Shown here: positions 11,046 to 62,155 of the stretch, piece after piece
Layout: every line of letters starts with the position of its first letter
Numbering within the stretch: position 1 is the first letter of the stretch
NCBI GenBank assembly: GCA_023078555.1
Contig: CM041201.1
Location: forward strand, 2,549,713 to 2,613,712
Length of the DNA stretch: 64,000 bases
Direction: 5' to 3'
Source of the DNA: Ulva prolifera
Lineage: Eukaryota > Chlorophyta > Ulvophyceae > Ulvales > Ulvaceae
Notes under the pieces: generated by a model
Told to the model about the DNA's origin: nothing
Databases searched by the model: none
The model's input: only the letters and a program-made list of their open reading frames with translations
Made by a program: the position numbers and the translations under genes

Positions 11046-12021
<976 letters not shown>

Positions 12022-18736: not shown

Positions 18737-20344
18737 ACAGCTACACGCTGTCTCAGCCCTCGGCTGTTAATTCACATCGCTGCTGCAGACCCCAGACCAG
18801 CCTCCTGAAACGGAGCCAAGCTTCAACCAAGGTTTGACTGGAGAGCCTAGCTCTCCCTATACATCAAAGAGCCCGAAAGGTGTGCACCCGCTCATGACAA
18901 ACAACTTGTGAATGTATCGTGCTTGCTCCTGTGCCGTCGAGTGCTGTCCCTGGGCCTGCATGTTCAACACCACTGGCATGTGTGCAAATTAGGCTAGTCT
19001 GCGTGTGTTTCCTCACAGCATGATTGTATCGCCTAGAATGCCACCAGTATCGTGATGAGCAGGTGACAAAAACGTGCACAACAGATCTAACTCTGCAACT
19101 TGTGTGGTTGCTGACGCTGAGGTAGCCTGCAGGTGGCAGTAGCAGTACTCCGGCCCATTGGCTACCTTGCTGCCGCACAGCATTCTGCGCCACGTCTCTG
19201 AGCTAAGCACAGGTGAGCCTGCCCGTCTCCCTCTCAGTGCTCATTGTTGTGCCTGCATGCCCACACTAGGCCCTGTGGCTGCCCGGCGGGGGGGCAGTGG
19301 CTTGGAGCTGGAACGCTGCGCCGTCCGGCCCCGCTGGCTGACACCCTAGGCCTGTGCATGCACTCATCATGCATGAGGCCAGTGCAGTTCCAACCCAAAT
19401 GACAATGGATCTGTGCATGTGGTCGTATGCATGTCTGCTGATGCACCGTCTCATCCCTGTTGAATCGCACTGCTGCTGTGTAGAAATCCGCTACCGCCTT
19501 CCAAAGCAGAGCCCGGCTTCACACCGAACTTGATTGCGTAGCCGCTGCTTCAAAGATCTAAGAGCCTACAGGTGTGTTCCCACTTGCATGGGATCACACT
19601 TGTACGAGTGGCCTTTCTTGCTCCTGTGGCTTGCTGCGAGAATGCACGTATCCTCGGTGCTGGCTCGTGTCACACAGAAACAACCACGTGACACCTGCAG
19701 CAATCTCACCCATGCGAGGGTTGTCCCCTCACTCCACTAATGAGCAGAAACAAATACACACACAACCAGCCAGTGGGCAGACCAGCACATACTCTGTGCA
19801 AGCGATCTCCATGCGCAAGATGTGTACTGGAATCGGCACAGCGCTATACATAGCATTCCTAGACACAGCACTCAGCAAACCGAGGTGTAGAGAAAGCATT
19901 CCACACAGGCCTCCCCCAGCATTTAGGTGCTCTCTGATACCATTCACATGCCGTCGAAGCGTAAGACTTACGGCAGTGTAGTATTCTTCACTTGTGTATG
20001 CTGGCTAGTCACTGTGCCCCGTATTCTGAGCAGGCAAGATGCACAACAGGCCATGTACTAAAGTACAGAGACTTTGGTCTGCATAGGTACCCCGCACCAG
20101 GCACATGAACAGCTGGCCCAAGCCGCTCCAGACACAGCCTTTGTGGTTAAGCGTGCACATGACTCAGCATGTCGCCACAAGATGTGGCAGTGTACTACCA
20201 GCATTCGCAGATCCCCACCAGAAAGTTCTGAGCGTGTGATAGGTCATTGTTGGCGACAGTGTAATCCACAGCTTGAACAATGCGCATACTTGTGGCTGCT
20301 GACGCCGAGGCAGTCTGCAGGTGCCAGTGGTAATACCAGTGCTC

Positions 20345-26300: not shown

Positions 26301-27679
26301 GGGCGCTAGAGCAATTGCCAGACAGCATCCAATTCTGCACCAAAATGAAGTTTCTCAGCCTCTGGGGATGCGAAAAGCTAACCCAGCTGCCAGATAGCAT
26401 CGGAAATCTCAATCACCTGGCGTGTCTGGACCTGAGTGGCTGCAGGAATCTGGCACAGCTGCCAGAGGGCATCAACGGAGGGAATCTGGCACACCTGCGC
26501 CACCTGAAGCTGCGAGAGTGTGCAAGCCTGGCATGTCTTCCAGAGGGTGTCAGCAGCTGTACCCAACTGCGGTGTCTTGACCTCCGGAGCTGTGTGGGGC
26601 TGACTCGGCTGCCACAGGGCATCAGCCGGTTGATTCATCTCACAAGACTCGACATCGGGTGCAGGGGTGTCGCCCAGCTGCCAGAAGGCATCAGCTCCTG
26701 CATCCAACTGCTCTGCCTCAACCTCAGTGAGTGCGAGAGCCTAGAGCAGCTGCCCGAAGGCATCAGCAGCTGCAGCCAGCTGACGTCTGTGAGCCTCAAG
26801 GGATGCAAGAGGCTGGCACAGCTGCCAAAAGGCATCAGTGGCTGCAGCCAGCTCGTTCAGCTCCGTCTCCAGGAGTGCACGGCTCTCAAACATCTCCCTG
26901 ACGGCATCAGCAAGTGCATCCACCTGGCGTCCATCAACCTCCGTGGCTGCAGGAGCCTCGCAGCGCTACCTCCGGGCATCGGCGGTTGCAGCCAGCTGGA
27001 GAATCTCAATCTCGCAGAGTGCACAAATCTGGCCGAGTTTCCTAGCGGCGTCCGCAGCTTGATTGGGCTGACGAGTCTCCACCTAGGCGGGCGCGAGAGT
27101 CATGCAAAGATACTGGAGGGCAGCATCAGCCTGACACAGCTGCAGAGCCTTCGCCTGAGAGCATGCAGGAGCCTCTCGCAGCTGCCAGAGGGCATCTGGG
27201 GCTGCACCCGGCTGACCCACCTCAGTCTCGCACAGTGTGAGAGCCTGCCGCAGCTTCCGGACGCAATCAGCCGCCTGAGTCTGCTGCAGTGCCTCAACCT
27301 CTGCGGCTGCAAGGCGCTCAAACAGCTGACGGACGGTGTCTGCGACTTGCAACAGTTGAGGAGCCTGCTCATGGGTGGCTGCAGGAGCCTCGCGCACCTG
27401 CCGGAAGGCATTGGCCGCCTCAGGCTGCTCACACACCTCAGCCTCCGCAGATGTAGACGCCTGACGCAGCTGCCGGAGGGTATTGGCGGCTGCAGTTGGC
27501 TCAAGCGCCTCGATGTGATGGAGTGCGTACGCCTGACACACCTGCCAGAGGGCATCCGGGGCTGCCGCAGGCTGAAGCACGTCGATGTGACGGGGTGCAG
27601 CGGAATGGCAGATCTGGTGGAGGGCATCAGGCGCTGCAGCCACGCAGATGATACGCAGGTCCTGCACAGTGAGCCTTGA
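20345..27679 (+). CDS. Giant NB-ARC/LRR (NLR-type) receptor, about 2,444 aa
   Basis: One uninterrupted frame. The N-terminal region (to about residue 190) is Leu/Ala-rich and helical in character (GWAVAESIQWLV, KQCRKLLRLLGDP, HALDQLAD). The nucleotide-binding NB-ARC module follows: P-loop GACGIGKT (214-221), kinase-2 VLLVLDN (290-296), RNBS-B GSRLIVTSR (from 323), GLPL-type GGNPLALQVLGSAL (from 397) and an MHD-position motif YSMHG (524-526), in which Asp is replaced by Gly. From about residue 656 to the end there are about 74 leucine-rich repeats of 24 residues, pattern LPEGISGCSQLxxLxLxxC. Plant relatives are intracellular ADP/ATP-switched immune receptors, and that role here is inference. 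No membrane segment or signal peptide is seen. Frame is open upstream to 20321, but the region before 20345 belongs to a repeat, so the start is not certain and an upstream exon is possible. Confidence 0.88.
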   Translation: MSSTAPKTPRCRAPDAAEARGPASPVPPLTASSVSGWAVAESIQWLVAHATTSGHRPSKQCRKLLRLLGDPHLHSAAHALDQLADRPQHQHHRSEYDALCEALSQAEAVLLPEAAQEQSLFQRWRTASLNVKKAKDIRVLLQQFCDPEKCAQLDASLKALPDLTTPHPHTDDSAPRSTEDPFAGLPPHIFQQCHDLVARIDEQLQSTRNIGIDGACGIGKTAIARAVFKRAKPRFDAAVWLTVGGDAGTALPLLQAASAELFPELAAPFETAEEGVRALAQLLHDGGRSVLLVLDNIVASTEEAGKAVEQLNFATRPSMRADGSRLIVTSRASDAVAHEPGGEGTARVQEARLFEVQPLGEEAARQLLSHATFGSPDATPPPFASGDMFAHLLQSCGGNPLALQVLGSALRHCSTAEQWEQRLAAQEARHAAGEDVATSTCAVSVQALPLSVQHCLAEFAALPEGTEADEEALLQLFATRAPLHTPASVRAAAVKLDHLVSHGLVLHCLDLDCCEAAHELKYSMHGVTRSTALLTSRLSGAGPSHGHTTILTRSGSAKCTSSGNELVPMSKAGAGSFRVTRLRTFVKGSLLSARRRGWPSFTGRAQQPPEPPWSRDGESITLEQLARHAADGTLGGLNLNSLERLWASLLGDAHERVLYVNLSGCKRLAHLPEGIGTFRHLRSLNLQDCASLTELPDGISACSQLSCLKLSGCDKLEQLPEDISRWSQLETLNLYNCKSLVNLPDSISGCSRLTFLNLNSCSSLAQLPDGISGCSQLRDFHLWGCEELTKLPEGITSLTQLTRLVLAHCRRLTHLPEGCSFLRDLRRLNLAECESLRELPVGIGSWNKLTYLSLHGCTNLPCVPESISGCSQLMDLRLSGCEKLEQLPEDISGWGQLESLHLYDCKSLVNLPDGISGCSRLTFLNLNTCIRLAQLPDGIGGCSQLRDFRLWGCEELAQLPEGITCLTQLTLLALARCKRLTHLPEGCSFLRDLRRLNLAECESLRELPVGIGSWNKLTFLSLHGCTNLPCVPESISGCSQLMDLRLSGCEKLEQLPEDISGWGQLESLHLYDCKSLVNLPDGISGCSRLTFLNLNTCIRLAQLPDGIGGCSQLRDLRLWGCEELAQLPEGITCLTQLTLLALARCKRLTHLPEGCSFLRDLRRLNLAECESLRELPVGIGSWNKLTFLSLHGCKDLPCMPEGITACSQLAILNLSGCKKLEQLPEDISGWRQLKLLNLYDCKCLVNLPDGISGCSQLTFLNLNSCSSLAQLPDGISGCSQLRDLHLCGCEELTKLPEGITSLTQLTLLALARCKRLTHLPEGCSFLRDLRRLNLAECESLWELPVGIGSWNKLTFLSLHGCKDLPCMPEGITACSQLAILNLSGCKKLEQLPEDISGWRQLKLLNLYDCKCLVNLPDGISGCSQLTFLNLNSCSSLAQLPDGISGCSQLRDLHLCGCEELTKLPEGITSLTQLTLLALARCKRLTHLPEGCSFLRDLRRLNLAECESLWELPVGIGSWNKLTFLSLHGCKDLPCMPEGITACSQLAILNLSGCKKLEQLPEDISGWSQLKSLDLSDCKSLVMLPDSIISCSQLTFLNLNNCSSLAQLPEGISGCSLLRDLCLCKCAELTQLPDGIGGCGQLKSLDLRGCRSLTQLPEGISSWSQLTFLTMFGCDSLACLPEGIRGCTALRSLSLAACEKLVELPEGLSGLCQLKNLDLMRCTSLSQLSEGINGCRQLQHISLEECTSLAQLPDAIVSLCHLTSLVLCGCDRLAWLPESITGCTQLAALDLRGCERLKQLPEGISTLCQLSRLDLFHCTSLGSLPEGISGCSQLQHLDLRGCTSLAQLPEAIASLCHLTSLVLRGCDRLAWLPESITGCTQLAALDLRGCERLKQLPEGISTLCQLSRLDLFHCTSLGSLPEGISGCSQLQHLDLQGCTSLAQLPEAIASLCHLTSLLLCGCDQLAWLPESISGCSQLTFLSLKGCGALEQLPDSIQFCTKMKFLSLWGCEKLTQLPDSIGNLNHLACLDLSGCRNLAQLPEGINGGNLAHLRHLKLRECASLACLPEGVSSCTQLRCLDLRSCVGLTRLPQGISRLIHLTRLDIGCRGVAQLPEGISSCIQLLCLNLSECESLEQLPEGISSCSQLTSVSLKGCKRLAQLPKGISGCSQLVQLRLQECTALKHLPDGISKCIHLASINLRGCRSLAALPPGIGGCSQLENLNLAECTNLAEFPSGVRSLIGLTSLHLGGRESHAKILEGSISLTQLQSLRLRACRSLSQLPEGIWGCTRLTHLSLAQCESLPQLPDAISRLSLLQCLNLCGCKALKQLTDGVCDLQQLRSLLMGGCRSLAHLPEGIGRLRLLTHLSLRRCRRLTQLPEGIGGCSWLKRLDVMECVRLTHLPEGIRGCRRLKHVDVTGCSGMADLVEGIRRCSHADDTQVLHSEP
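22483..25002 (+). repeat. Five 504-bp tandem blocks (7 LRRs each) inside the giant NLR
   Basis: The sequence around agctagagcagctgcc recurs at steps of 504 bp (about 22483, 22987, 23491, 23995, 24499 and 25003). Long stretches between neighbouring blocks are identical, for example LPEGCSFLRDLRRLNLAECE in each. Blocks 2 and 3 are most alike, as are blocks 4 and 5. This is recent in-frame unequal exchange or gene conversion. Confidence 0.92.
25645..26225 (+). repeat. 288-bp duplication (4 LRRs) inside the giant NLR
   Basis: The segment from ctagcatggctaccggagag through agccattgccagcctgtgtc is repeated 288 bp later almost without change. It encodes LAWLPESITGCTQLAALDLR and its following repeats twice. 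It is independent of the 504-bp block series upstream. Confidence 0.9.
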
Positions 27680-34078: not shown

Positions 34079-37000
34079 GTTACAAAAGAGTGAACGGGAG
34101 AAAACAAACACCGAAACCGAATCTCATCCGAAGCAACTGCAACATACACTCACACACACACGAACACTACAACCGCACTCACAACTCAGTCCGGCAGGAT
34201 CGCGTCCTCCAGGCCCGCATCATATCGCAACCCTTGCTCCCGAGAGATGACAAGCCCAGACTTCCGATACATATCCGCATTGCCGCGCTGAATGACACCG
34301 ACAACACCCGCAGCGCCCACTGGACAAACGCGCCCTTGGAGATGCGCCCACTGGCAGCGGCCACATCCCCCAACTGACCGACGAACCTCACGGCAGCCTT
34401 GCCCATGAAGCCACACGATTCGACCGCAAACGGAACAAACCGGAACGCGGCATGGTCAGGCACGTCCCGCCGGAAGCGGTCCCGCTTCCTGTCCTCCGCC
34501 CGCTCCGCCGTCGCACCCGTCTCCCGCGCCGCAGCGGCCACGTATGAGGCCGCCGGCGCATGCGTGACCACGACGTCCACGGCCGCCATCTCCAGGCGCG
34601 GCATGACCACGACGACGTCCCCGCGGCGATTCAGCTCAACACCCGCGCCCCTCGCGAGGGCACGGTAGAGCGGCTCCAGGGCAGACTGCAGTCCGGCGTA
34701 AGAGGCGACCATGCGCAAGGCACGAGCCAGGTTATCATGGCGCATCTGGGTCTCCTTTGCCACCTTCTTGCAGACCATGGCGTGGTCCGGTTCGGCGGCA
34801 ACACCTGCACTGCATTTGCACGGAGGGGGGGGGACGTCCGTCGGGCCGCGGAATCGCAGGCGGTGCCACACCGCCAGGACAAACATGTCGTCGCCCATGG
34901 TGAGAACGCCGCCCGGCAGAGCGGAGAGGAAGGCGCCTGCAGGCCCCCCCGAAGCGCTCCTGAGCCACGCCGCTTCCCACCTGCCGGCCGGCGTGTCGAG
35001 GTCGATGCCCTGTAGCACGAGTGAGGCCGCATGGTCCGCGACCGCGCGCCCCACCTCGCGCTGGGCCGCTAGCAGCTTGCCCGAGACGAACTCGTCCGGC
35101 AGGTCACGGGCATCCGCCTCCCACCCCAGCAGCTCATGCAGCTCGTCGAACAAGCCCTGCCAGCGCTGCAACAGACTGCCCCGGCTGTGGCCGCAGAGGG
35201 GGCGGAGCAGGTCCGGGCAGCCGGCGAGGTTGCGCTCGGCCGTGCCGGCCCCCGACAGGAAAGCCGCGTCAGCGACGCTGTCCACCAGCATCGTCAGTCC
35301 GAGCCCGCCATGCCTGACAGGGGACATCAGCCGGTAAGCAAGCCGCCGCGTCTCAGCGTCAGTGGCCGAGTTGTCAGACGCGGCAGCAGCCTCCGCAACC
35401 TCCGGCGGCAGGCACAGGATTGCGGCAGCACCGCGCCACACAGCGGCCTCCGCCCTGCGCATGTGCGGCTCGAGCACGGCATACGGCACCGTCCGCATCA
35501 GGTGCGTCATGCGCACACTCAGGGACACACGCAGCAGGAGGAACTGCGCCTGCACTGAGAGCGGGATGCGCACGAGGGTCTCGACGAGGCCCTCGACCTC
35601 GCGCGCCCGCGCGTCCAGCACCTCGTCGACGTACTCCGGGGTGCCCAGCGGCGTGCCGACAGCCTTGAAGCCCGCGTGCAGATCCCGAATGCCGAGCTCT
35701 GCGGCCACGGCGGCCGCCGCCTCGGCGTCGGCGCTGTGGACGCCGCATTTTGCCGGGTTCACCTCTAGCCCAATGCTGCGCACGCCGTCAGCTTCCACGC
35801 ACAGCCGCCGGAACACGGCAGCTCCAGCCGCGAGGTCGCCCGCAATGCTGATGTCGTCCAGGTACGCCACCACAGGTGCGCCGGCGCCTGACGCGTCGAC
35901 GCGCTCCAAGACAGGCTGCAGGGTCAACGCAAACAGGAGGGGGCCCAGGGGGTCACCTTGGCGGACGCCACGTTGGCAGAGGACCGGCTCGACGTCCTTT
36001 GGAGCGCCCGCGATGTGCAGCGGGGTCCCGGCGCTGTACGCCCACTGCGTGAAGGGCAGCAGCGCCGGGGCACGCTCCTTCACGGCAGCGAACATGGCCG
36101 CGCGGTCGATGCAGTTGAAGGCGTTCTTCATGTCGACCGAGAACACCGAAGCGCCCTCGGCCAGAGCAGAAGACAGGCCGTGCACGACTGTCTCGGTCCC
36201 GCCCCGTGTGCCAACGCCGACCTGCAGCGGCGCCAGGCTCTCTCCGATGCCGCGGCCGTACTCGCCAGGGCGCACACTGCCGCGAACCGGTACCAGGTCT
36301 CCCCCACCGCGATCGGCCGCGTGCCACCGTCCGGCTTCTCCAGGCCGATGAGGAGCCCGTCCAGCAGGAACGTCTCCCGTGGCAGCATGCCGGACAGCAT
36401 GTGGTTGACGACCGCCAGCAGCGCGTCGGTGGCTGCGTCCGAGGATTGGCATGCTGCGCAGATCATCTCGAACGTCCAGCCGGACGGGCCGGCCGACGAC
36501 CCTCGATGGTGTGCGCTCACGGCGGCCACCGCCGCCACCAGCGCCTCCCGTGTCAGGCACAGAGCGGGGACATCCGGGTTCGGCTCCAGAGGGACCGGCG
36601 GATCTGCTGGCGGGAACAATGCGCGCAGACCGGCTTGGACCTCCGGGGACCGTGCATCTGCGGGCTTGCCATCCTGCAATCCGCGGCCAGCTTTGTGAAT
36701 GGAGCGCTTGATGCGAAAGCATCTGTCGATGTGTTGCGCCCGCAGCTGATCTGCAGACATGGGAGCTTTGCGCCTCCCGGGCCAGCGGCCGGGCGGCGTG
36801 TCCTCCCACATCTCCACGGGCAGCCCGAGGGCGTAGTCGCGGCACCGCCCTGCCGCCGCTTTCCCAGAGCGCCGCCCCCTGCTGTACGCTAGCAGGCGCA
36901 TGGGCAGGCGCATGAGCTCCTCGAAAGCGGCAACAACCTCCTCTCGCGCGCTGTCGCCGCGCGCATGCGTGCACGCGTCGGCCACCAGCTCCCACACGCT

Positions 37001-37790
37001 TGTGCACGACTCGGCCCACCCCAGCCGGGCGGCTGGGGGGACATGCTGCGGCAGGCGCAGCCGTGGGGCCGCGTTGGCCCGCTGCACTGGCGGGGCAGAT
37101 GCAGCCGCACGGAGCCCGGCCTGTCTGCGGGGGCCCGCCCGCTGCGACTGGCTACCTGCTCCCCGTCCCTTGCCTTTCTTCTTACCTCCCCGCCGGGCAC
37201 GTTGCTGCTTGGCGTTGCCGCCCGTGCCCCCACTGGCCTGCGCAGGGGGGGGTGCGCCGGCGGCTGCTGCGGCTTGGCGATGTGGCCGGCGGGTAGCAGA
37301 CTGCTTGGCTGCTGCGCCTGCGAGGCCAGGAGGCGGGGGAAGAGGCGGGGAAGGGGTGTCGGCGGAGGCGGGCGGGGGTGGATGGTGGCACTGTGCAGTG
37401 CCGTGAGCCCTGTCGTGCTGGTCGTTGCTGGTGGCTGGCGGCTGCTGAGGGGCAGCCGTGGCGAGCTGAGTCTCACCAGGCACCACATTCAGCGCCGATT
37501 TTACCTGTTTGCTTGTATCTGCAGAGAGATGAGCCTCGGTAGCTGTCCCGCTGGCAGGTGCTGCGCGCCGGCGCTTGGGCTGTGGAGACCCGCGCGGTGA
37601 CTCGCGCTGCACGACTGCGAGCTGTCCATTGTTGCAGTTAACAACTTCATTAGTATCTAGGATGCTACGTTGGTCTGTAATCAATAGGCTAGGTCGCACG
37701 GGCGACTGCGAAGCGTGCTGGCGGTTCAGGTCGCTCAGCTTTGCCTTTGACGGCTCCTTCCGCTTCGGCTTGCCCATGGGACCCTAGCAT
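34079..37790 (-). mobile_element. LINE (element 1), near full length, minus strand
   Basis: Runs from its ORF start at 37777 to a 3' tail unit (tacaaaagagtgaacggg on the plus strand) at about 34079. The 3' UTR is short and contains a small cacacacac run. Fragments of the same family lie at 7.4, 12.1-12.5, 32.7 and 50.7 kb. The 5' end was not delimited and no target duplication was identified. Confidence 0.8.
34179..37777 (-). pseudogene. Reverse transcriptase/endonuclease ORF of LINE element 1, frameshifted
   Basis: Two overlapping frames make one protein of about 1,200 aa when read across a single shift near 36262-36268, between GETWYRFAAVCAL and GIGESLAPLQVG. The N-terminus is basic and Pro/Ala/Arg-rich with a GGKKKGKGRG stretch. 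The reverse transcriptase core follows, with motif A VDMKNAFNCID, motif B QRGVRQGDPLGPLLFAL and motif C YLDD (in VVAYLDDISIAG). The C-terminal part has a zinc knuckle (CKCSAGVAAEPDHAMVC), RHDNL, and a region resembling a PD-(D/E)XK restriction-like endonuclease (GDVVVVMP, VDVVVTHAP, EDRKRDRF). There is no apurinic-type endonuclease. One frameshift and otherwise clean frames indicate recent loss of activity, or possibly a sequencing error at one base. Confidence 0.85.
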
Positions 37791-38548: not shown

Positions 38549-39094
38549 GCAGAAGACTGGCTTGAACGCGAAGGACATATATATAGTATGTACGTCTGTC
38601 GTCTGTGCTGTGTCGTGGTCCCGATGTAGACGCATGCCAAAAGAACCCGGCTGCGGGAGGCAGCAAAAAGAAAACGAATAGGCCCTTAGTTGTGTTCTGT
38701 CGTCCGCTGTCGTGCAGCTGCAACGAATACGCGCGCCAGCTGCCAGTGTTCCGTCGTTCTGCAGCCCCACTAGAATGCCAGCGGACTAGCCGCCAGTGGC
38801 CTGCAGCCTTGCCCATTTACAACACCTAGATGTCTGTTCTATGTTTCGCCTGGCCTTCCTGGTGACCCGCTTGGCTGTGCAGCCGTCATGTCGGCGCGGG
38901 CCGCTGGCTGCCCGCGTGCCGTTGTCCGGCAGTCCCACTGGCAATCCTGCGGACTAGCCGCGGGTGATCTGCAGATTTGATTCGTTAAAAGTGTTGTGTG
39001 TTTGTTGTTTTAGTTTTGTGCCGTCTGGCCGGTTTAATGGCCCGTTAGACTGCACCGTTAGTGTGTCCACTCCCAGCGGAACGAGTCCTTGCGT

Positions 39095-42000
39095 ATGAGC
39101 TTTCAGTGTCCATATGACGGATGCAGCGCTACTCTCTCCTCCCATTCAAGCCTGTTCACCCACGTTCGAGGAATCCATCGCGACGGGCCGAGGCTGCCTA
39201 CTGCGAAGCTGCACGAACTCAATGCCGCTTACTGCTCTCACTGTGGCATATTCGGCTCTACCAAGACCCCTAAGGCGCATAAATGTGTGGGAGGTCAGAA
39301 GAGAAGCTTGAGGTCAGGTCACTGCGTGCTGCCCGCCGGACATCCGGCCCGACAGCCCGCCCCAGCCCAACCCGCCCCAGCCCAGCCCATCCCTGCCCAG
39401 CCCGCCCCAGCCCAGCCCGCCCAGCCGCAGCCTGCCCAGCCTGCCCAGCCGCACCCCCATCAGCCACCCCGTCACATCACCGAAGCCCCCGCCGCCGCCC
39501 ACTACACCGCCCGGCCCAGGCCCTCCCCGAAGGTCCCGGACAGCGTCCATAAGGAGTTCGGCGACGCAACGGCCGAGCTCTTCAGAGATTTCAACGATGC
39601 CAGCGACGCGTCCAACATCGACCGAGCACGAGTGGCCCTTGGCCGCGTCCTCGACTTCCCTGGTAAGGTTCTGTCGCTGAAGGGAGGGGACGGCACGGCG
39701 CGCCGCGCTCGTACATGCATCACGCTGTTCATGGACGGCGAGGAGCCCAGGCTTGCGGAGCCCACTCCAAGCCAGAAGCGCAGAATGAATCAGAACCAGG
39801 ATCGCCGCCTGGCGGGCTCTGTCCACAGGTCACTGAGCGACGGTAATGTACGCAAAGGCGCGGAGAAAGTGGAGGCGCCGCCCATCGCCAGGTACACCCC
39901 GGAAGTGCATGAGGAGCTGCGGCACCTGCATCCCGCAGAAGCGCTCCCCCCCAACACCCAGCCCGCCGAGCCCGCGCCCCCGCTGCAAATCGACGAGGCG
40001 ACGCTCCTCGCCCTGCTCGACAAGCTGCCGAAGGGCAGCGGCCCGGGCCTGTCGGGGTGGACGTATGAGCACATCCGGGCTGCCGGCACGGCCTCCACGG
40101 CCGCATTCACGGAAATTCACCGCTTCGTGAACGCGGCCCTCGCCGGCCGGCTGCCACACCTCCCGCGCTTGCTGGACTGCCGCCTCCTCCCGCAGGAGAA
40201 GCCACAGGGAGGCGTCCGCCCTATCGCCATTGCAGAGACGTGGCAGCGCCTGGTAAGCCTGTGCGCCATGACCCTGTGCAGTGGCCTAGGTGCCTCCCTC
40301 GCGCCGCTGCAGGTGGGGGTCGGGGTGCCAGGGGGCGCGCAGAACCTGGGCCATGCTGTGCGCGCCGTGCTGCAAGCGTGGGACGATGTCGTGCTTGTGC
40401 AGCTGGACTGGAAGAATGCATTCAACATGATGTCCCGTGCAGCCATCTTGGAGGCCGTTGCGTCTCACAAGCCTGCGCTGCTGCCCTTCGCCACCATGCT
40501 TTACAGGTTCCCCGCAAATCTCTACATCGAAGGCGCACCGCCCGGCACCGCTGCAATCACGTCGCAGCGCGGCGTGCGTCAAGGCGACCCCATCAGCCCG
40601 CTGCTCTTCGCCCTGGCCCTCCAGGGCCCCCTCCAGGCAGTGCAGGCCCAGCACCAGCCACCCGAGAGGGAGGTCACGGCCGCCCTCATGGCGTATCATG
40701 ACGACTGCACCATCGCCGGGCAGCGCGTGGACGCCGCCGCCGCATTCCGTGCGCTGGTCTCGGCAGCAGAGCCCCTCGGGCTGGAGCCCCAGCTGCACAA
40801 GTGCACGGCCTACTCGCGCGACCCCCAGCATGCGGGATCCGTCGCGGCCACGCTCGGCATAACGCATGCCACGGAGGGCACCGTCATCACCGGCACGCCC
40901 ATTGGCACCCCGGCGTTCGAGTCGGCGCACGCGGAAGCGACGGCCGACAAGGTGTGTGCCACCATCGAGAAGATGATGAGCCTGCCCCTGAAAGCGCAAG
41001 ACCAGTTCTTGCTGCTCACAATGTCCTGCCAACGCCGTATGCTGCACTACGCCAGGGCGGTGCCGTGGGCGCACATTTCCGATCACATGCGCCGGACGGA
41101 GGCGTCTGTCCTGGCTGCGGTGAATGTAATCATGCGCGTCCCGCGGGACGACCTTCGTGCGGCCGCACAAGCCGTCCTTCCAGCGCGCCTTGGAGGCCTG
41201 GGCATCATGTCCACGCCGCCGGAGGTCGCGGACGGAGCGTACCTCGCTGCAGCTGCGGTGAGCCAAAAGGCATTCGCAGGAGGCCCCGAGTGCATGCAGC
41301 CGTATTGGGGGCCGCACGGGCAACACTTGCAGGAAACCTGGCAGGCCCTCAACGTCGCTCAGCAGCTCCATCCGGAGCTGCCCGGCCCGGCGAGCGGCGA
41401 CACCATCGCCAAGGTGTTACCTGGTATGCAGCAGCGTGTCACTAAGGTGGTTGCCCTGCGCCGCCGGGCAGCTCTGCTTGCCAGCCATGACGTCGCCACG
41501 CTCGAGGGTGCATGCAACTTGGCACGGCTTCGCAGCTGTGCTTGCCGTGCAGCCACCCTTTGGTCGAGCACCCTGCCGCTGTCCCAGGCGCTGCGCATGA
41601 CTGACATGGAAATCATGCTGAGCATCAGGTATCTCCTGGGCATGTCCCCAGCCCCTCCCAATGCGGTCGGCTCGCGCTGCGAATGTGGCACATTCATACA
41701 GCCGCATGATCTCGACCATGCGATGAATTGCACACACAATGCGGGGACCTGGACTTCGCGCCACAATATCGTTGAAAAACAATGGCGCGAGATCGGGTCC
41801 CACGCGTGTGTGGCGTCCACGCGCATCCCGCGCACAACGCCGTTCGTCCGCGCGCGGCTCGCGGCCGCTCCGAGGCAGATCCATGCTGGCCCGTCGGGCC
41901 CGCCCCCCCCTGCGCCGCCCCAGCCCGCCTCACAGGTCGCGGGCCCTTCGCGCGGGGCGACCTTGCCCGCGGAGCCGGTACCTGCAGCCCCGCCGCCGCC

Positions 42001-42670
42001 GCCGGTCGCGCGTGCGGACGCGGCGCCGGCACCTGCGACCGCTCCGGCCGCCGACGCCAATGCCGGACACAGCGCCCAAATGGGGCGCCACGCGCCAGAC
42101 GCGGCGCAGGCTGCGGCCCTGGCGGCGGCAGCGGCGCCAGGTGGCCAGGGTCCGGCGGGGCCTGGGGAGCAGGCCGCTGCCGCGCAGGCAACGGCGCTGG
42201 CGCAGGTGTTGAGGGCAGTGGCCCAGGAGAAACTGGGGGACATCATGTTTATGCCGCCGGGTGACCCTTTGTGCATAGGGGATGTGTCGGTTGTGAACCC
42301 CTGTGCTGGTTCCTATTGCGGCCGTGCGGCCCGCGAGGACGGGGGTGCTGCGGAGACGCGGGACGTGCAGAAACGCACTGCTTATCGGTTGTACGACCCT
42401 GATGCGTATAGTTTCGTGCCGTTATCGCATGAGACGCATGGTCGCTTGGGACGGCCTGCCATGAATCACTTGAATCGGCTGGCGGAGGTTGCGTCTCGGT
42501 GTGGTAAGGTGAACCGTGCTTTGTTTGTGACGAATGCTCTGCGCCGGTTGAGTGTGGCGTTGTGCAAGGGGAATGCTCTTGTGCTCCGTGCGGGGCTTCA
42601 ATCTTTGGCTGGCATCACCGGCCGAGCTGTGGTACGTGCTCGTGCCCGGCCTAGTGCCATGACTGCGTGA
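39095..42670 (+). CDS. LINE-2 polyprotein: C2H2 finger, reverse transcriptase, zinc knuckle, restriction-like endonuclease
   Basis: An intact ORF of 1,191 aa starting at ATG 39095. At the N-terminus is a C2H2 finger (CPYDGC ... HVRGIH), a probable DNA-binding module. It is followed by an APAQPAPAQP-type linker. The reverse transcriptase has motif A LDWKNAFNMMSR (about residue 440), motif B QRGVRQGDPISPLLFALAL and motif C MAYHDDCTIAG (534-544), where YHDD replaces the usual F/YADD. The thumb is followed by a zinc knuckle (CECGTFIQPHDLDHAMNC, about 864) and RHN (about 891). After an Ala/Pro-rich spacer come GDIMFMPPGD, GDVSVVNP and KRTAYRLYD, which align with the endonuclease-like end of element 1. 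This layout is typical of early-branching, often site-selective LINEs. The enzyme would nick target DNA and copy its own RNA at the nick. Confidence 0.9.
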   Translation: MSFQCPYDGCSATLSSHSSLFTHVRGIHRDGPRLPTAKLHELNAAYCSHCGIFGSTKTPKAHKCVGGQKRSLRSGHCVLPAGHPARQPAPAQPAPAQPIPAQPAPAQPAQPQPAQPAQPHPHQPPRHITEAPAAAHYTARPRPSPKVPDSVHKEFGDATAELFRDFNDASDASNIDRARVALGRVLDFPGKVLSLKGGDGTARRARTCITLFMDGEEPRLAEPTPSQKRRMNQNQDRRLAGSVHRSLSDGNVRKGAEKVEAPPIARYTPEVHEELRHLHPAEALPPNTQPAEPAPPLQIDEATLLALLDKLPKGSGPGLSGWTYEHIRAAGTASTAAFTEIHRFVNAALAGRLPHLPRLLDCRLLPQEKPQGGVRPIAIAETWQRLVSLCAMTLCSGLGASLAPLQVGVGVPGGAQNLGHAVRAVLQAWDDVVLVQLDWKNAFNMMSRAAILEAVASHKPALLPFATMLYRFPANLYIEGAPPGTAAITSQRGVRQGDPISPLLFALALQGPLQAVQAQHQPPEREVTAALMAYHDDCTIAGQRVDAAAAFRALVSAAEPLGLEPQLHKCTAYSRDPQHAGSVAATLGITHATEGTVITGTPIGTPAFESAHAEATADKVCATIEKMMSLPLKAQDQFLLLTMSCQRRMLHYARAVPWAHISDHMRRTEASVLAAVNVIMRVPRDDLRAAAQAVLPARLGGLGIMSTPPEVADGAYLAAAAVSQKAFAGGPECMQPYWGPHGQHLQETWQALNVAQQLHPELPGPASGDTIAKVLPGMQQRVTKVVALRRRAALLASHDVATLEGACNLARLRSCACRAATLWSSTLPLSQALRMTDMEIMLSIRYLLGMSPAPPNAVGSRCECGTFIQPHDLDHAMNCTHNAGTWTSRHNIVEKQWREIGSHACVASTRIPRTTPFVRARLAAAPRQIHAGPSGPPPPAPPQPASQVAGPSRGATLPAEPVPAAPPPPPVARADAAPAPATAPAADANAGHSAQMGRHAPDAAQAAALAAAAAPGGQGPAGPGEQAAAAQATALAQVLRAVAQEKLGDIMFMPPGDPLCIGDVSVVNPCAGSYCGRAAREDGGAAETRDVQKRTAYRLYDPDAYSFVPLSHETHGRLGRPAMNHLNRLAEVASRCGKVNRALFVTNALRRLSVALCKGNALVLRAGLQSLAGITGRAVVRARARPSAMTA

Positions 42671-53797: not shown

Positions 53798-54617
53798 GCG
53801 CCTCCATGACCCTGATCCTACACATGTGCACGGCATCATGCATCCCTGTGAGAACTTCAGTGACAAAAGCGCTCTTGTACAACATCTCCGCTCCCTTGTG
53901 TGCGCACGCGCATGTGCGCATGTGTATGGCAGTGCAGTCCTTCGCACGCAGTCCTTTGCACACGGAACTCGCCGAGTGCCAGTGGGGCCCGATAAGTCGG
54001 GAAACCTGTCCAATCGGGCCCGACGACCCAACTCGGGCACGCACACCCACACACCCACAATCACACGCCGCTCATGTGTGCTCTTCTGTAATCACTTCAA
54101 GAACTTCTGATCACTTGAAGTTCTGTGACGCAATTGTGATCATGAGGGCTTGCTCCAAACCACTGAGTGTGGTGGAGATCGGGCAGCATATATGCCAGTC
54201 ACTCGGTTGTGAGCTGTCTTCTTCAACAGTGACAAGAGTGACCCACGTCGGTTGGGGTATGTTGCGAATGCTGTGCCCACAGCCTTCAGAGCTGGAATGT
54301 GCGGCTTGCGCTCAGTCAGGGCTCCAGTCGGCGCTTCAGATTGGCTTGTGACTCCAGGTCCGGGATTACACTGGCGCACCCGCCGGCGGCGTCTTCATCA
54401 GTGTAGCCATGCACATTGCCAAACTCAGTTGCCTCATCATGTTTGCCCTGTGCGAAATCATCTGCGACCCACCAAGGGCATTTGGTGAGGTCTCGGTCTC
54501 CTGTGCTGAGTGTAAATGTGCTGTGACACCATTGCAACAGATGCACATCCACACATCCACACACACGTTCGCAGAAGAGTGCAACGGTACGAGTTGCTGC
54601 ATGTCGTGCTGCAGGCG
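53798..54617. other. Upstream region of NLR 2
   Basis: No domain-bearing frame. A ctgcag acceptor-like site ends at 54614, four bases before the chosen NLR start, so an upstream exon or 5' UTR intron is possible. A CA-rich stretch (cccacacacccacaatcaca) near 54045 resembles the body of the SINE-like family. Confidence 0.4.
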
Positions 54618-57602
54618 ATGTTTTCTGCCTGCGCTTCTGCGTGTACCAAGGATGCAGGATTGGCAGCGAACAAGGCAGTCGGGAAAGCAGCAGGCTCCGC
54701 TGCGAAGGCAGTCATCCCCGTGCCCATCCTCAACGAGGTGGCTGGCTGGGCTGCCGAAGAATCAATCCAGTGGCTACTGGTGCAGGCGGCTGCCATTGTG
54801 GGCCACCCCAAGCAGTGCCGCAAGCTGCTTGACCTCCTGCGTGATCCTTGCCTACTCAAAGCTGTGCACGCCCTTGACCAGCTGACGGAACTCATCCAGT
54901 TTGCGGACCACAGGCGCGACTACCACGAGCTCTGCGACACTCTGCAACAGGCGGAGCTGCTTCTGCTGCAGCACTCGCACACTGCAGAAGGACCGCAAGT
55001 CGAGTCCAGGGCCTGGAGATGGTGGCACCGAGTCACGGATAGCAAGACTCCAAAGCAACTGCGCGTTTCACTGCAGCGATTCTGCCGGCTTGACATGAAA
55101 ATGCAGCTTTTCACCACATTGCAGGTGATGGCTTCCCCACCTGCCCCTCAAACAATCAGCAGGGCTGAGCGTTCCCCATCACTGCACTCATATCTAGGCC
55201 CAGACGGTGACCTCCCAGAGTATTCTGAGCCAGACTTGCCGACGCACATCTTCCAGCACAACGATGACCTTGTACCCCAAATCGATGAGCAGCTGTGGAG
55301 AACCCGCAACATCGGCATCGTCGGCCATGGCGGCATCGGCAAGACAACCGTCGCCCAAGCAGTGTATGAGCTGGCCAAGACACGATTTGATGCAGCAGTG
55401 TGGCTGACAGTAGGCGAGGATGCAGATGACGCAAAACTGCTGGAGCTCCTTGAATCAGCTTTTGCAAGATTGTTCCCTGACACAGCCATTCCATTTACAA
55501 GCGTAGACCAGGGTCGTCAAGCACTGGCACAATTGCTACATGGTGCAGAAGAGGGGCAGTCCCCGCAGACGGTGCTGCTGGTGCTTGATGATTTAAGGCC
55601 TGCCTCAGAAGGTCGAGCGTCGCAATTGTCGTCCTTGAACTTTGCGACACACCCCGACATGCGGGTGAGAGACAGCAGACTCATCGTGACAACGCGGTCC
55701 AGCGAGACACTTTCCTACCCTTCCCGCAGCTCTGCGGGTGGGACGGTTCCCATGCCCGAACTGCAAAGGTTCAGCCCACCACTCCTGGAGGTGGAGCCGT
55801 CGCAGCAGCTGTTCTACTACCACGCGTTTGGCGCATCAGATGCGGAATTGCCGGGCTTTCTGGCAGCTAGCGCAGATACGACCGAGCAAATGATTCAGAG
55901 CTGCGGCGGGAATCCGCTCGCTCTGAAGGTCCTCGGCAGCGCACTGAAGAGTTGCAGAACAGCAGAGCAGTGGGAGCAGCGCCTGGCAGCACAGCGTGAG
56001 CAGCAAGCGCAGGGCAAAGATGAGGCCACTGTGTCATGCGAGACAAGTGTTGCCGCCCTGCCGCCATCCCTGAAGGAGTGCTTCATTGAATTTGGCAGCT
56101 TACAAGGGGCCGCCCGGATGCACAAGGAGGCTCTGCTGCACCTGTTTGCAGCTCGCGCGCCCCTGCACACACCCGCCAGCGCGAGGGCAGCCGCCGCCAA
56201 GCTTGATCAACTCGTGAGCCGCAGCTTGATGGCCCAGGGTGTAGACGACCAGAAAGTACCAGTGTTCTACATGCATGACATCTTGCGGAGCATTGCACTG
56301 CGCCTTTCTGATCAGACGCAGACGCGCTCGTTCTGCGGCACGTTCCCCGACGAGGCCGCTGGTGGAGATACGGGTCCACGAGCAGGTCCACCAAAATCTA
56401 TGCAGGTGGACGTGTCACCTAACGAGCGTTCGTCATGTAGGCGAATGGTGCAGTTTATGTGGCTCCATGAGCCTGTGAGCAGGCAGCCTCCACATGATGG
56501 GTCGGCTTCAGATGGCTGCATTTTGCGGTGGCCCATGTTGAAGTTCCTGAAGCTGCAGCTGGGCACGTCTTGGGTCATCAAGTCACTTGAACTGCAGCTG
56601 CCATCCCTTCTGCATCTTGACCTCAGCGGATGCTTGTGGCTGCAGACGCTGCCCCGCGGCGTCACTGACTGCCACCAGCTGATGCACCTCAATCTGCATG
56701 CGTGTGAGCAGCTGCGAACGCTGCCAGAGGCAATCAGGAATCTTGGCCAGCTTGAGCACCTTGATCTCGGCGGCTGCGCTGCCCTGGACTCACTGCCGGA
56801 CGGCATCGGCGGCTGCACCCACCTTCAGCATCTCGACCTCAGAAACCTGAGCCAAGACTTCACGCTACCAGAGGGACTGAGCAAACTGACTCAGCTTGTG
56901 CACCTCAATTGTAAGCATTCAAAGCTGGTACTTTTGCCACATGGCATCAACCAGTGCAGAAAGCTAAAATACGTCAATTTTAGATGCCTTGATAAGCACG
57001 TTTTCGGACTGCCAGAGGCCATCAGCAGCTGGAGCGCTCTGCTGCAGCTTGACCTCAGTGGTAGAAAGATAGATCTGCTGCCAGACATCAGCGCCTGCAT
57101 CCACCTCAGGGATCTTGACCTGGGTAGATGCCTCGAGTTGCAGCAACTTTCAGAGGGCATTTCCGGCTGCAGGCAGCTGAAGCGCCTCAACCTGAGGGAG
57201 TGTTGGAGCTTAGACAACCTGCCGGAGGGCATCGGATCTTGTATCAATCTCACTTACCTCGACCTCGGCAAGTGCTGCAAGCTAGAGACTCTGCCAGAAG
57301 GCCTCAGCAGGTGCAGTGCGCTGAAGCACCTAGACCTCAGCGGGTGCTACAGAGTGCCGTCTCTGCCGCAGGGCATCAACAACTGGAAGCACCTGAAGCA
57401 CCTCGACCTGGGCTACTGTAGAGGTTTGCAAGGGCTATCGCTAGATGTCCGGATGTGTGAGTTTGTCAAGCTGCAGCACCTTGACAGGGGGTCAACCACT
57501 CCCGCTACATGGTGGGCCCACCTACGGCGCGCAAGATCGGCTGCGATTTTGGCCGCTTGGGGAAGACTTTGGCTATTGTCTATGTTAGATGGGGATTCGT
57601 AG
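54618..57602 (+). CDS. Second NB-ARC/LRR (NLR-type) receptor, 5' part, interrupted by a transposon
   Basis: Starts at ATG 54618 (MFSACASACTKD). The frame is open upstream to 54516, but that part has no similarity to NLR 1. The N-terminal helical region (GWAAEESIQWLL, KQCRKLLDLLRDP, VHALDQLTEL) matches NLR 1. NB-ARC has P-loop GHGGIGKT (236-243), kinase-2 VLLVLDDL (319-326), SRLIVTTRS, GLPL-type GGNPLALKVLGSAL (from 430) and a canonical MHD (552-554). About 12 LRRs follow. The gene-derived part ends at 57485. The last 38 codons (RGSTTPATWW...) are the inverted repeat of an inserted element and run to a stop at 57602. The rest of the LRR domain resumes at 58924 in frame. As it stands the product would be a truncated receptor, unless the insert is spliced out. 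Confidence 0.87.
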   Translation: MFSACASACTKDAGLAANKAVGKAAGSAAKAVIPVPILNEVAGWAAEESIQWLLVQAAAIVGHPKQCRKLLDLLRDPCLLKAVHALDQLTELIQFADHRRDYHELCDTLQQAELLLLQHSHTAEGPQVESRAWRWWHRVTDSKTPKQLRVSLQRFCRLDMKMQLFTTLQVMASPPAPQTISRAERSPSLHSYLGPDGDLPEYSEPDLPTHIFQHNDDLVPQIDEQLWRTRNIGIVGHGGIGKTTVAQAVYELAKTRFDAAVWLTVGEDADDAKLLELLESAFARLFPDTAIPFTSVDQGRQALAQLLHGAEEGQSPQTVLLVLDDLRPASEGRASQLSSLNFATHPDMRVRDSRLIVTTRSSETLSYPSRSSAGGTVPMPELQRFSPPLLEVEPSQQLFYYHAFGASDAELPGFLAASADTTEQMIQSCGGNPLALKVLGSALKSCRTAEQWEQRLAAQREQQAQGKDEATVSCETSVAALPPSLKECFIEFGSLQGAARMHKEALLHLFAARAPLHTPASARAAAAKLDQLVSRSLMAQGVDDQKVPVFYMHDILRSIALRLSDQTQTRSFCGTFPDEAAGGDTGPRAGPPKSMQVDVSPNERSSCRRMVQFMWLHEPVSRQPPHDGSASDGCILRWPMLKFLKLQLGTSWVIKSLELQLPSLLHLDLSGCLWLQTLPRGVTDCHQLMHLNLHACEQLRTLPEAIRNLGQLEHLDLGGCAALDSLPDGIGGCTHLQHLDLRNLSQDFTLPEGLSKLTQLVHLNCKHSKLVLLPHGINQCRKLKYVNFRCLDKHVFGLPEAISSWSALLQLDLSGRKIDLLPDISACIHLRDLDLGRCLELQQLSEGISGCRQLKRLNLRECWSLDNLPEGIGSCINLTYLDLGKCCKLETLPEGLSRCSALKHLDLSGCYRVPSLPQGINNWKHLKHLDLGYCRGLQGLSLDVRMCEFVKLQHLDRGSTTPATWWAHLRRARSAAILAAWGRLWLLSMLDGDS

Positions 57603-58915
57603 TGTGTCATCTCACTCGGGTGGGGAAAATGGCCCATAATCGTCCATATGGCTCGTCTGGTTGGGGAAAATCGGCCTTTCGCGACGCTGGCTCCCCAACC
57701 GGCCCAGACGCTCAGTCGCCTCCCCAAACCTCCCCAAACATTCGCAGGCGTCCCCAAACGCCTTTAAAATGAGCTCTTTAAAGCTCTTGTTGGTGATCGC
57801 AAGGCTGTATGTGCATTTTTTTCGTTGGTGAGGCTTCATGAAGCTGTATACTGCTGAGTTTCCTGGAGGCTGGCCACTAGTGACGCACGCTATGCAATTT
57901 GAGTCGTATTAATCCCTCTAATAATGCTGGATAGGTCCGAATCTCTGGATATCCGGACAGGGCGTCCTACCTGCGATCTGTGTGTAGCATGGGATAGTGG
58001 CTCAAACTGAATTATACACGAGATATCAAAGCTTCACTGCCTGATCCTGATTGATCGTCACTCTCGTAGAACTTTTGATATCGGCATGGGGCGCATGAGT
58101 ATCTTGATTCCTGTGACAGGCCTGACAGGCCCTTGTGATGGAGCATGATCCGGAGCTTTGCAGTCCACCTGCTAGGTGTGTACTTCTCAACGAAGACGTC
58201 AGCGTAGGTATGCTTAGGTCATCTTTTGCGTAGTGTCACTGGAGACGTGTTGAGTTACTCTGGCCTGCTGTGATCATGCCTCGCCATTGTACACTAATGA
58301 ATCATTTCAATAGAGCGGTGGATGCTGGATACACGGTGGATACATCATTGATGCGCATTTGCGGTATCATTAGAGTGACATGCTGTGAAATAAGGTGTAG
58401 ATGTGACGGTGCATTACAAAACATGGGCATTCCCCATTGCACATAAAATTGAGGCAGGGTCCTTCAACACGCAATATTCAACACGCAATATTCAACACGC
58501 AATATGCTGCCAATCAATGCTGACATGTCGCCTGACCAGTGCGTGAGCGCCCCGCCATGTCGGCCCGATCAGCTAGCGCGCCGTTGAATAGTGCCTCACT
58601 TGCCGAACGCTACCCACAAATGTGACAGAAGCAATATGTCATAACCCGGTGAGTATCATAGCATATTTTGAGTGTGCTACGTGTTCTCGATGCAATGGCA
58701 CACGTTTGGGCATGAACGACCCTCGTTTGGGGAAAAGCGCGGAAATTCGAAAAACCCGGGTTTGCGATGGGGAGACTCCCCAACAGCGAGATGATACACT
58801 ACGAATGCCCATTCAACATAGACAACAGCCAAAGTCTTCCCCAAGCGGCCAAAATCGCAGCCGATCTTGCGCGCCGTAGGTGGGCCCACCATGTAGAGGG
58901 AGTGGTTGACCCCCT
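57486..58915. mobile_element. hAT-like non-autonomous transposon, 1,430 bp, inside NLR 2
   Basis: Perfect 8-bp target duplications accttgac lie at 57478-57485 and 58916-58923. The termini are agggggtcaaccactccc on the left and its complement on the right. The inverted repeat extends for about 130 bp (through catggtgggcccacctacgg and gcgcaagatcggctgcgatt) with few differences. The interior has several tccccaaa/ttggggaaa motifs and a 14-bp triplicate, but no transposase frame. An 8-bp duplication and an (A)GGGG terminus fit hAT elements. Near-identical ends suggest a recent insertion. Confidence 0.92.
58463..58504. repeat. 14-bp triplicate inside the hAT-like element
   Basis: Three copies of a unit reading ttcaacacgcaata in a row, in the interior of the transposon. 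Confidence 0.9.
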
Positions 58916-58923
58916 ACCTTGAC

Positions 58924-59385
58924 CTCAGCGGGTGTGACGGGCTGGAACAGCTGCCTGTGCCTGCCACGGGCTTTAGCCAATTCAAGCTGCGGAACCTCTG
59001 CCTCAGCAATTGCCGACGTCTCATGCACCTGCCAGACCGGCTGAGTGAGTGCAGCCAGCTTGCGAACCTTGAGCTCAATGGGTGCGAACGTCTGGCACAG
59101 CTGCCAGATGGCATCGGTCGCTGCAGCCAGCTCAAGCACCTCAAACTTAGTGGCTGCATGAAACTTGAGAAGCTGCCGCAGAGCATTTCCAGTTGCAGTC
59201 AGCTCAAGCAGCTTGACCTCAGCAATTGCCAGAGTATGGCTTGCTTGCCCATGGGCATCACTTCCTGCAGCAAGCTGAGTATTGTCAATATCAGAGGTTG
59301 TGGCGTGTCCGCACAGCCGCGAGACGATCCAGAAGTCAGTGCCTTCCGAGAGATGCCACGTTCACGGCTCTACCTCATAGAGTGA
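58924..59385 (+). pseudogene. 3' part of NLR 2, separated by the transposon
   Basis: Encodes LSGCDGLEQLP, NLCLSNCRRLMHLP, LELNGCERLAQLPDGIG, LKLSGCMKLEKLPQ and LDLSNCQSMACLP, then a non-LRR tail ending SRLYLIE. Leaving out the element and one target duplication joins QHLD at 57485 to LSGCDG at 58924 in the same frame, giving a continuous LRR. The uninterrupted gene would encode about 1,109 aa with about 18 LRRs. In its present state this part has no start of its own. Confidence 0.88.
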
Positions 59386-60329: not shown

Positions 60330-62155
60330 GATGCGTCAACTTCGGCAGTTCCCGGCCTGGCTGCTTGTTTGGAGGCTGATTCTGCCGCCTGTGCCTGGTG
60401 AATCATCATGGGCAAGGCTGCCGTTGTGCTGGTTGCGACTTCAAGTTGTGCCCGCCTGTTTCTTACCAAGGCCTAGGGCGGAATGAGGGCGGGGGCAGGT
60501 ACAGACGTTGTGCCTGCCTCCTCGCTCAGGCCTATTGCGCTAGGTGCTGCAGTCTCTCATGAGGCTGTTGTGCTGTATGTCAGAGAGTTCACTCTGACAT
60601 ACATGTTAGAGAGTGTATGTGCACTCCATGTCAGAGAGTGTACTATATAGTATGTGCACTCTCTGACATACAGCACAACAGCCTGGCATGTGCCAGCACT
60701 TGCTGCCCCCAGCATTTCACTCTGCGCTTCTGTCACATTCATGCGTTTGCGGCAGGGAGGCCTTTTGCTCGGCTCCGATGTGTGCACCACCCCACCAACT
60801 GCAGCAGTGTCAATATTAATGCAGGCCGCAGGCATTTGACGGGAAGGTGTGTGGAGGCATGCCGAAGTGGAGGTGACTCAGTGTTGGGTTGCTGACGATG
60901 ATGGAGATGTCGCAGAGTCACATGCACGGCCGCCAATTAACATCGCGGCGGTGTTGTCGGCGACGGGGCTGAGTTTGCAGTGCAGTGAATGGTCACGCCG
61001 GGTGTCAGTGTAAGGCATGGCCCCTGCAGGCCTGCATGTTTTCGTCATCTTCCCGCCACTGCTTGGATCCTTGCACTGAGGCAAGGATGCATGCATGGTG
61101 CTGCTGCGTCCATCAGAGCTTCCTCTGTGTATTAACAGATCTCCTTGTCATGCTGACCAATAATAATACCACTAGTAATACCACTAATGATAGTAAATCA
61201 GCTATAGTGTTGCGACATTGTTACGTTGTACTTGACCATGTGTCTGAAATTCGAGGTACTGCAGAGAAAAACATCCGCAGTGCCTGGTTCTTCTGGAGAG
61301 TGGCACCCTCTGCATCCATTTGTCTTGCATTTTGTCTGCTGCACCTGAGGTGTAGCTGTTGCAACAGCTACAGCTCATGAGCTTGGTCATTCCACACATG
61401 GCACTGCCGAAGCCCTGCATGTTCCTGATTGCAAGAATTGGCAATCACGCAACAGTATCCCACTGTGTCTTGCTGCCAGCCGCTTTGAAGAGAGTGAGGC
61501 TCCTGCCGTTGAGCCATGCATCCGAAGCACTCGCACACCACATCACCATGACTGAATGTGCCAGGTAATACCGCAGCCACGGGATGGCGCAAAAGCTTCA
61601 GGTGTGAAATAATAAGCATATTCATCCAGTGACTACGCCGGAATTCAGCCAGATAGGGCGGGGGAAGCATAATAGAGGCTGCCCTGCTACGAGCATGGCA
61701 GCACCTTCTCTGGGACCCAGAAGAAAGAGCATGGGAACAAGTCGAAAGGTCGCCTGATCTTGATCTAGTTTTTATTCCCATGCACGTGAACATGGTGCCG
61801 ACAGGCAAAACACCAGCGCACATCAAAGCAGAGGAAGGGGGAAGAAAACATAAAAGATCCTGGGGCCGGCCACTCACGGGATCCGCAGGCACGCACTCAT
61901 CACTCCACACAACAGCACTGCCTTTATGAGAAACTAAGCACGAGGCTGCGGGTCAGGCCAGTCTGATGTTTGGCATGACTTGTGCGATCAGTACAAACTT
62001 GCAGCGTCGCCTCAGAGAACAGCTCCCACTCAGTAGCTGCATACGTCTAGGCTCGACCAATCACCGCAATCAGCTACACCCGGCAGGGCCTATGATTGAC
62101 TCATCAAGTCAATCCAACTGCAATCTATACCGTAGGCCTGCAACGCAGGCGAGAT
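60330..62155. repeat. 3' flank of NLR 2, duplicated at 27.8-29.4 kb
   Basis: Colinear with 27770-29420 (shared anchors listed there), at roughly 65-80% identity by eye with indels. Similarity ends sharply after cctgcaacgcaggcgaga in both. One visible difference is the foldback at 60563-60683, which is absent from the other copy. Confidence 0.75.
60563..60683. repeat. Foldback: perfect 26-bp arms, 69-base loop
   Basis: ggctgttgtgctgtatgtca then gagagt (60563-60588) is exactly complementary to 60658-60683. The loop has further small inverted pieces (cagagagt, actctctgac, actatatagt). The related flank after NLR 1 (27944-27985) has one gaggctgtcgtgctgtgtgc and no second arm. Confidence 0.9.

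Follow-up and report, generated by a model that had tools for sequence, protein, structure and literature searches.

A recently inserted transposon splits an NLR-type gene of the green alga Ulva prolifera and leads to a sister element family with a candidate P-like transposase

Many features of a recent cut-and-paste transposition can be seen in a 64-kb stretch of the genome of the green alga Ulva prolifera (64,000 nucleotides, contig CM041201.1, positions 2,549,713 to 2,613,712, assembly GCA_023078555.1; hereafter the window). Here, a DNA transposon with terminal inverted repeats (TIRs) lies within a gene of the NLR type, which combines an NB-ARC domain with leucine-rich repeats (LRRs). The features of the split gene and of the element, together with a second NLR-type gene used for comparison, are as follows, in window coordinates.

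54516-57485, plus strand: 5' part of the split NLR-type gene, with the N-terminal region, NB-ARC and about 12 LRRs (open reading frame; Pfam)
55275-56051, plus strand: NB-ARC domain, residues 254-512 (Pfam)
57478-57485, no strand: target-site duplication, copy 1, ACCTTGAC
57486-58915, no strand: non-autonomous TIR DNA transposon of 1430 bp (inverted ends and family copies)
57486-57616, no strand: left terminal inverted repeat
57486-57602, plus strand: stretch of the element translated as 38 foreign residues and the stop that ends the truncated NLR frame
58785-58915, no strand: right terminal inverted repeat
58916-58923, no strand: target-site duplication, copy 2, ACCTTGAC
58924-59385, plus strand: 3' part of the split gene, with about 5 LRRs and the C-terminal end (stop at 59383-59385; open reading frame; Pfam)
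20321-27679, plus strand: paralogous NLR-type gene with an uninterrupted frame of 2452 amino acids, the comparison sequence

The split gene has the NLR-type architecture, with NB-ARC (E 8.7e-20) and LRR_14 (E 1.3e-20) matches from Pfam in one frame, and its N-terminal region has no Pfam match. In the presence of the insert the frame ends at 57602 after 1028 amino acids, at a stop within the element, and its final 38 residues are element-derived. The insert plus one duplication amounts to 1438 bp, which is not a multiple of three, and the element therefore interrupts the frame. When both are left out, 54516-57485 and 58924-59385 join into a frame of 1143 amino acids with no internal stop, in which the LRR motif LQHLDLSGC crosses the junction in register. 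The paralogue, assigned as such from its alignment to this joined frame (38% identity, 1261 aligned columns, 216 gap columns), runs through the junction free of gaps, with a 2-residue gap 6 residues before it. A reading made earlier from the sequence alone had proposed a continuous LRR frame of this kind, and the open joined frame and the collinear paralogue uphold it. That reading had also stressed that the gene was split "exactly in frame". The joined frame is indeed open, but the frame is restored by removal in silico because a clean insertion has simply been taken out again; the same holds for any clean insertion, and we reject the point as a special feature. The evidence supports the view that a TIR transposon recently split one formerly continuous NLR-type gene. 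As a separate observation on the paralogue, its LRR part contains DNA repeated in tandem in units of 72 and 288 bp (94% alike for the 288-bp units), which suggests a recent repeat expansion.

The perfect 8-bp duplications and long, near-identical inverted ends claimed by the sequence-only reading were borne out. The ACCTTGAC duplications are exactly 8 bp, since the adjoining bases differ, and the inverted ends are 131 nt each and 95% complementary. The claimed span of 57478-58923 has both duplications at its edges, but its start is that of the first duplication, and the element proper occupies 57486-58915. Two occurrences of the 17-bp terminus are present in the window, compared with 0.16 expected by chance at up to 3 mismatches, and none of 100 shuffles reached two. 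The two ends differ at 7 positions, but 2 of these mismatches are already present in the family consensus; because the consensus ends themselves differ (2/131), dating of the insertion by the divergence between the two ends of the window copy was rejected.

The element belongs to a sizeable family in the 88.9-Mb assembly (44 contigs, given here by C numbers; the window is C6:2549713-2613712). The 131-nt end matched at all 40 places scored, from 135 candidates, and the 18-bp terminus, at up to 2 mismatches, occurs 149 + 144 times, compared with 7 + 13 for the reversed pattern. The interior of the element is present at no fewer than 40 loci (counted from 43 pieces with 40 of 44 candidates scored). 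The sequence-only reading had named a lack of other copies with these ends as a result that would refute it, and it passes this test. For the duplications, 37 loci were fetched whole (L009-L045), the Copia-bearing copy (L046/L047) and two others being left out; perfect 8-bp duplications, at different sites, flank 34 of the 37, the exceptions being L010, L018 and L026. Divergence was compared across 32 aligned copies of 1407-1580 bp. The nearest of these to the window copy, L032, differs at 7 of 1429 positions (0.49%), and the window copy has 4 private changes; three other copies (L027, L039 and L041), each at its own site, show no differences across 1432 bp. Members of the family have transposed recently, and the window insertion is recent but not necessarily the youngest.

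Does the element prefer the codons of LRRs (ACCTTGACCT) as targets? This was considered and found no support: when the 37 pairs of flanks (300 bp per side) were compared with both NLR-type genes of the window, the only match was at the window's own insertion, and thus no LRR targeting was seen. The longer copies with exact ends (L009, L029, L037, L045 and L046/L047) were examined as possible autonomous members and rejected, each being the same element carrying an insert. L009 (4770 bp) contains a LINE with endonuclease and reverse transcriptase, L046/L047 holds a 13.95-kb insert that is of Copia type as judged by eye from its frames, and L045, L037 and L029 carry other inserts. L009 and L045 are interrupted at the same bases (element positions 497-501) by different inserts; that of L045 is 849 bp long and has no blastn similarity to the one in L009. 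Both inserts lie in a TGTGTG stretch, perhaps reflecting a common preference for such sites. At another place, L086 (C10:1752962), 127 nt of terminal sequence share 97% identity with the window family but are followed by a different interior, and the other end lies beyond the 2 kb examined.

Coding elements are found in a sister family, whose ends read AGGGGGTCATCC (36 + 34 exact ends in the genome). Over 140-260 bp, the sister ends share 70-76% identity with the ends of the window element, and perfect 8-bp duplications flank 25 of the 26 sister copies examined (the exception is L072). Four of the 26 are long, at 5027, 8033, 8035 and 9488 bp. Two of these, L049 and L050 (8033 and 8035 bp), are 99.94% identical, lie at separate sites with their own distinct duplications, and carry frames of 239, 567, 386 and 323 amino acids at the same coordinates on a single strand; the pair is apparently intact. 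L051 and L048 carry internal deletions, and L052 is longer by 1.4 kb. A protein search with the 567-amino-acid frame matched these coding copies and L051, and it also found a fragment on C1 and a decayed relative on C4, the latter 60% identical in its best piece and with several stops; around the C4 relative and the C1 fragment, the 19.5 and 17 kb examined contain no family ends, even with 3 mismatches allowed. Further searches with the L049 frames returned little. No transposase model of Pfam-A (hAT, P, THAP, KDZ, MULE or Merlin-type) matched the four main frames at E up to 1; all that appeared were three weak rows below their cut-offs (Isochorismatase, E 0.011; ECSIT_N, E 0.049; HTH_19, E 0.087). 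A sequence search of the PDB with two of the frames gave nothing meaningful, and a comparison of viral contigs with the 386-amino-acid frame gave 4 pattern matches, for none of which a relative was confirmed. The sequence-only reading had suggested a genome search with the terminal 130 bp for related elements and an autonomous partner; the related elements are there, but a coding and possibly autonomous partner appears only in the sister family.

What kind of transposase would this be? One line of evidence comes from the target sites. According to Table 4 of PMC3276498, the P element has the target motif GTCCGGAC, and hobo/hAT elements have GTNCGNAC (nTnnnnAn). The test was confined to perfect duplications (34/37 for the window family, 25/26 for the sister family) and compared them with 5000 samples drawn from the flanks of the window family. 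The window family's duplications favour C at position 3 and G at position 6 (35/68 in a two-strand count), and this C3/G6 score was reached by none of the 5000 samples for the window family and by 7 for the sister family. The full motif GTCnnGAC was read off the window family, and the sister family therefore provides the independent test of it; only 5 of 5000 samples reached the sister family's score. The pattern of the P superfamily, a palindromic GTCCGGAC-like target combined with a duplication of 8 (or 7) bp, is thus present in these elements in its 8-bp form.

The second line of evidence comes from the catalytic residues, given as D230, D303 and E531 for P transposase in PMC7776569 and PMC8230255. 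Acids conserved between L049 and the decayed C4 relative were compared with P transposase. For the segment at ECESFFGEIRS, E531 was the best of 346 positions, with a score of 32 against 9.5 for the next. Of the two aspartates chosen, the placements at D303 and D230 rank second and third, respectively. For each conserved block, the best 21-residue match to P transposase places a conserved acid at E531 or on the D303 diagonal; in the 567-amino-acid frame it is the aspartate that falls on the D303 diagonal. D303 was also the best place, though with a low score, for a further conserved acid (residue 162 of this block). On balance, these results lead us to favour a P-like identity for the sister transposase, its membership of the P superfamily being a candidate assignment. 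The likeness to that superfamily (Drosophila P, THAP9-linked elements and Galileo) would consist of the 8-bp duplication, the weak palindromic GTCnnGAC target, the acids aligned with D303 and E531, and the coexistence of a coding element with internally deleted derivatives. The ends differ from those of Drosophila P, with AGGGGG termini and lengths of 131-145 nt compared with the 31 bp stated in PMC7776569, though Galileo has long ends.

A number of results weigh against this assignment. The block scores are modest, being reached by 85 and 18 of 1000 shuffles, and the profile scores against P transposase are weak, being equalled by 70 and 51 of 2000. The sister element, at 8 kb, matches no THAP or P-family Pfam model in its frames, and the P model for the C-terminal part of RNase H found nothing genome-wide. 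The [C/D](2)H motif, which PMC8230255 describes as a P signature after the second D, was not seen in the L049 frame, where the candidate place reads VIQH by eye, and the spacing between the first and second aspartates is 138 compared with 73 in P. In addition, the longer exact-end copies examined include no autonomous member that has both the ends and the interior of the window family. Four further exact-end places (L084-L087), outside the list of interior-bearing loci, retain 361, 152, 127 and 29 nt of family sequence and showed no transposase in the 2 kb examined.

It is possible, if rather unlikely, that the sister transposase comes instead from another or undescribed superfamily with 8-bp duplications (KDZ/Zisupton, Novosib, Merlin, MULE or a new one), and that its P likeness reflects convergence or chance. 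Elements of the KDZ (Kyakuja-Dileera-Zisupton) group have an 8-bp duplication and long ends. The unmatched P models, the weak P profile comparison and the long TIRs would all fit such an origin, as would the report, in PMC8226300, of Zisupton and Kyakuja elements from Chlamydomonas and its relatives. However, the KDZ, MULE and Merlin-type models are unmatched as well, and both the target motif and the catalytic positions accord with P. A search of the genome for the KDZ family, made without a positive control, found nothing.

The sequence-only reading had called the element hAT-like, and a non-autonomous hAT element mobilised by one of the genome's hAT transposases is an explanation that we consider improbable and largely refuted. 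The 8-bp duplications, perfect in 34 of 37 copies, are shared with the hAT superfamily, and the genome has 16 places with a hAT dimerisation domain (38 candidates scored). There is also a weak preference for T2/A7 in the duplications of the window family, reached by 9 of 5000 samples. This preference is not repeated in the sister family (1396/5000), while that for C3/G6 is. The termini of hAT elements have the form Y-A-R-N-G, and ends of 131 nt are long for them. The AGGGGG ends of the window family depart from that form, whereas the genome's own hAT loci show TAGGG, CAGTG and CAGAG. In none of the seven hAT loci examined is the hAT gene bracketed by AGGGGG ends (AGGGGGTCAACC). Four of the seven have other plausible hAT ends with an 8-bp duplication: TAGGGATGGCACAA at L056 (inverted match 14/14) and L059 (13/14), CAGAGTTGCAT at L058 (12/14) and CAGTGTTGGC at L054 (11/14). 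L053 has weak end candidates only, and L055 and L057 have none. Considering that the ends lack Y-A-R-N-G, that the four main frames of the coding sister element match no hAT model at E up to 1, and that T2/A7 is unrepeated, the hAT label is unsupported; the differences from hAT extend to the ends, the target motif, the sister-family transposase and the appearance of the genome's own hAT loci.

Could the insertion be tolerated, with the element spliced out as an intron and the full-length receptor still made? We regard this as very unlikely. There are 39 frame-keeping GT-AG pairs in the scanned stretch, the best of which (57511 to 58929) would retain element residues. However, the splice scores, from a generic matrix, are low, and all six top-scoring donors in the stretch are located past the stop at 57602; the likeliest outcome is therefore that the C-terminal LRRs are lost. 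As read, the truncated receptor would consist of NB-ARC, about 12 LRRs and 38 element residues, with about 5 LRRs and the C-terminal end lost, and it would probably be non-functional. That the two LRR parts belong to different genes, or that the insert arose as an assembly error, is hardly credible: the duplication is exact, the same family is inserted at many other sites, frame and repeat register are perfect, and the paralogue is collinear across the junction.

The split gene is one of many. A search of the genome with its residues 1-990, in which 46 of 116 candidates were scored, found, with the window gene counted in, at least 32 NLR-like places whose matches extend over 100 or more residues of the NB-ARC stretch. 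Ten of the 32 counted lie within C6:2.30-2.61 Mb; there are groups on C1, C4 and C8, and the remainder include places on C3 and at the beginning of C6. The closest relative among the places scored is 57% identical across about 600 residues, and thus none of them is a near-identical twin of the split gene. At least 6 other NLR places have stops inside the match, which introns could account for; one broken gene among many is the usual state of NLR-type clusters. NB-LRR architecture and clustered copies are also features of the NLR-type genes of the chlorophyte Chromochloris zofingiensis, as described in PMC7145615; the present gene differs in that its N-terminal region has no Pfam match and in that this copy is split by a transposon. 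Two side observations concern the NLR family. The matches at C4:7464928 and 7500270, and at 7476006 and 7511348, recur with equal scores exactly 35342 bp apart, which probably reflects a recent segmental duplication within the NLR cluster, and those at C1:4818671 and C6:35677 have identical scores and frames of 1373 amino acids each, pointing to a recent copy or an assembly duplicate.

Elsewhere in the window, a short foldback lies 3' of the split gene at approximately 60560-60690 (GGCTGTTGTGCTGTATGTCAGAGAGT and its close complement, by eye), and is perhaps another small mobile element. At 11047-12017 the dinucleotide CA is repeated about 486 times in a nearly perfect array, and the long open frames at 34179-37777 and 39089-42670 resemble, by eye, the reverse transcriptase of non-LTR retrotransposons. 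No Rfam or tRNA matches were found in the 64-kb window.

The best explanation, and one that we consider likely, is that one of at least 32 NLR-like loci was cut short by a non-autonomous element which belongs to a recently amplified family and was moved by a P-like transposase. A short non-coding cut-and-paste transposon entered an LRR of a previously continuous algal NLR-type gene, duplicating 8 bp of target. The window element is immobile by itself, and its likeliest mover is a transposase of the type encoded by the 8.03-kb sister elements that share its ends: a D-D-E enzyme, distantly P-element-like rather than hAT. Such a transposase would bind the shared ends, excise the element and insert it elsewhere through cuts staggered by 8 bp, and would mobilise both families. 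The outcome in the host gene, as its sequence shows, is an early stop in the LRR region.

Receptor genes are often broken by transposons. The insertion event is accordingly ordinary, and the sister transposase is the unusual part. Among the titles and openings of abstracts listed by a literature search, which did not extend to Repbase and Dfam, no account of a P-type element in a green alga or of a transposon in an algal NLR gene was recognised, and we do not claim that none is known. More speculatively, the AGGGGG elements might represent a separate, recently active green-algal lineage, with a D-D-E transposase too distant from P for current Pfam models to detect, that has distributed non-autonomous copies across the genome and is still inactivating immune-type genes, such that the presence of the full receptor would vary between strains.

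The window thus offers an algal NLR-type gene with a recent insertion, which one polymerase chain reaction could score in strains, and it draws attention to a pair of 8-kb elements, almost identical and apparently intact, with an unclassified P-like transposase. If the P-like assignment is true, cut-and-paste transposition of a kind best studied in animals would be extended to a green alga, and the pair would provide a candidate tool for insertional mutagenesis in such an organism.

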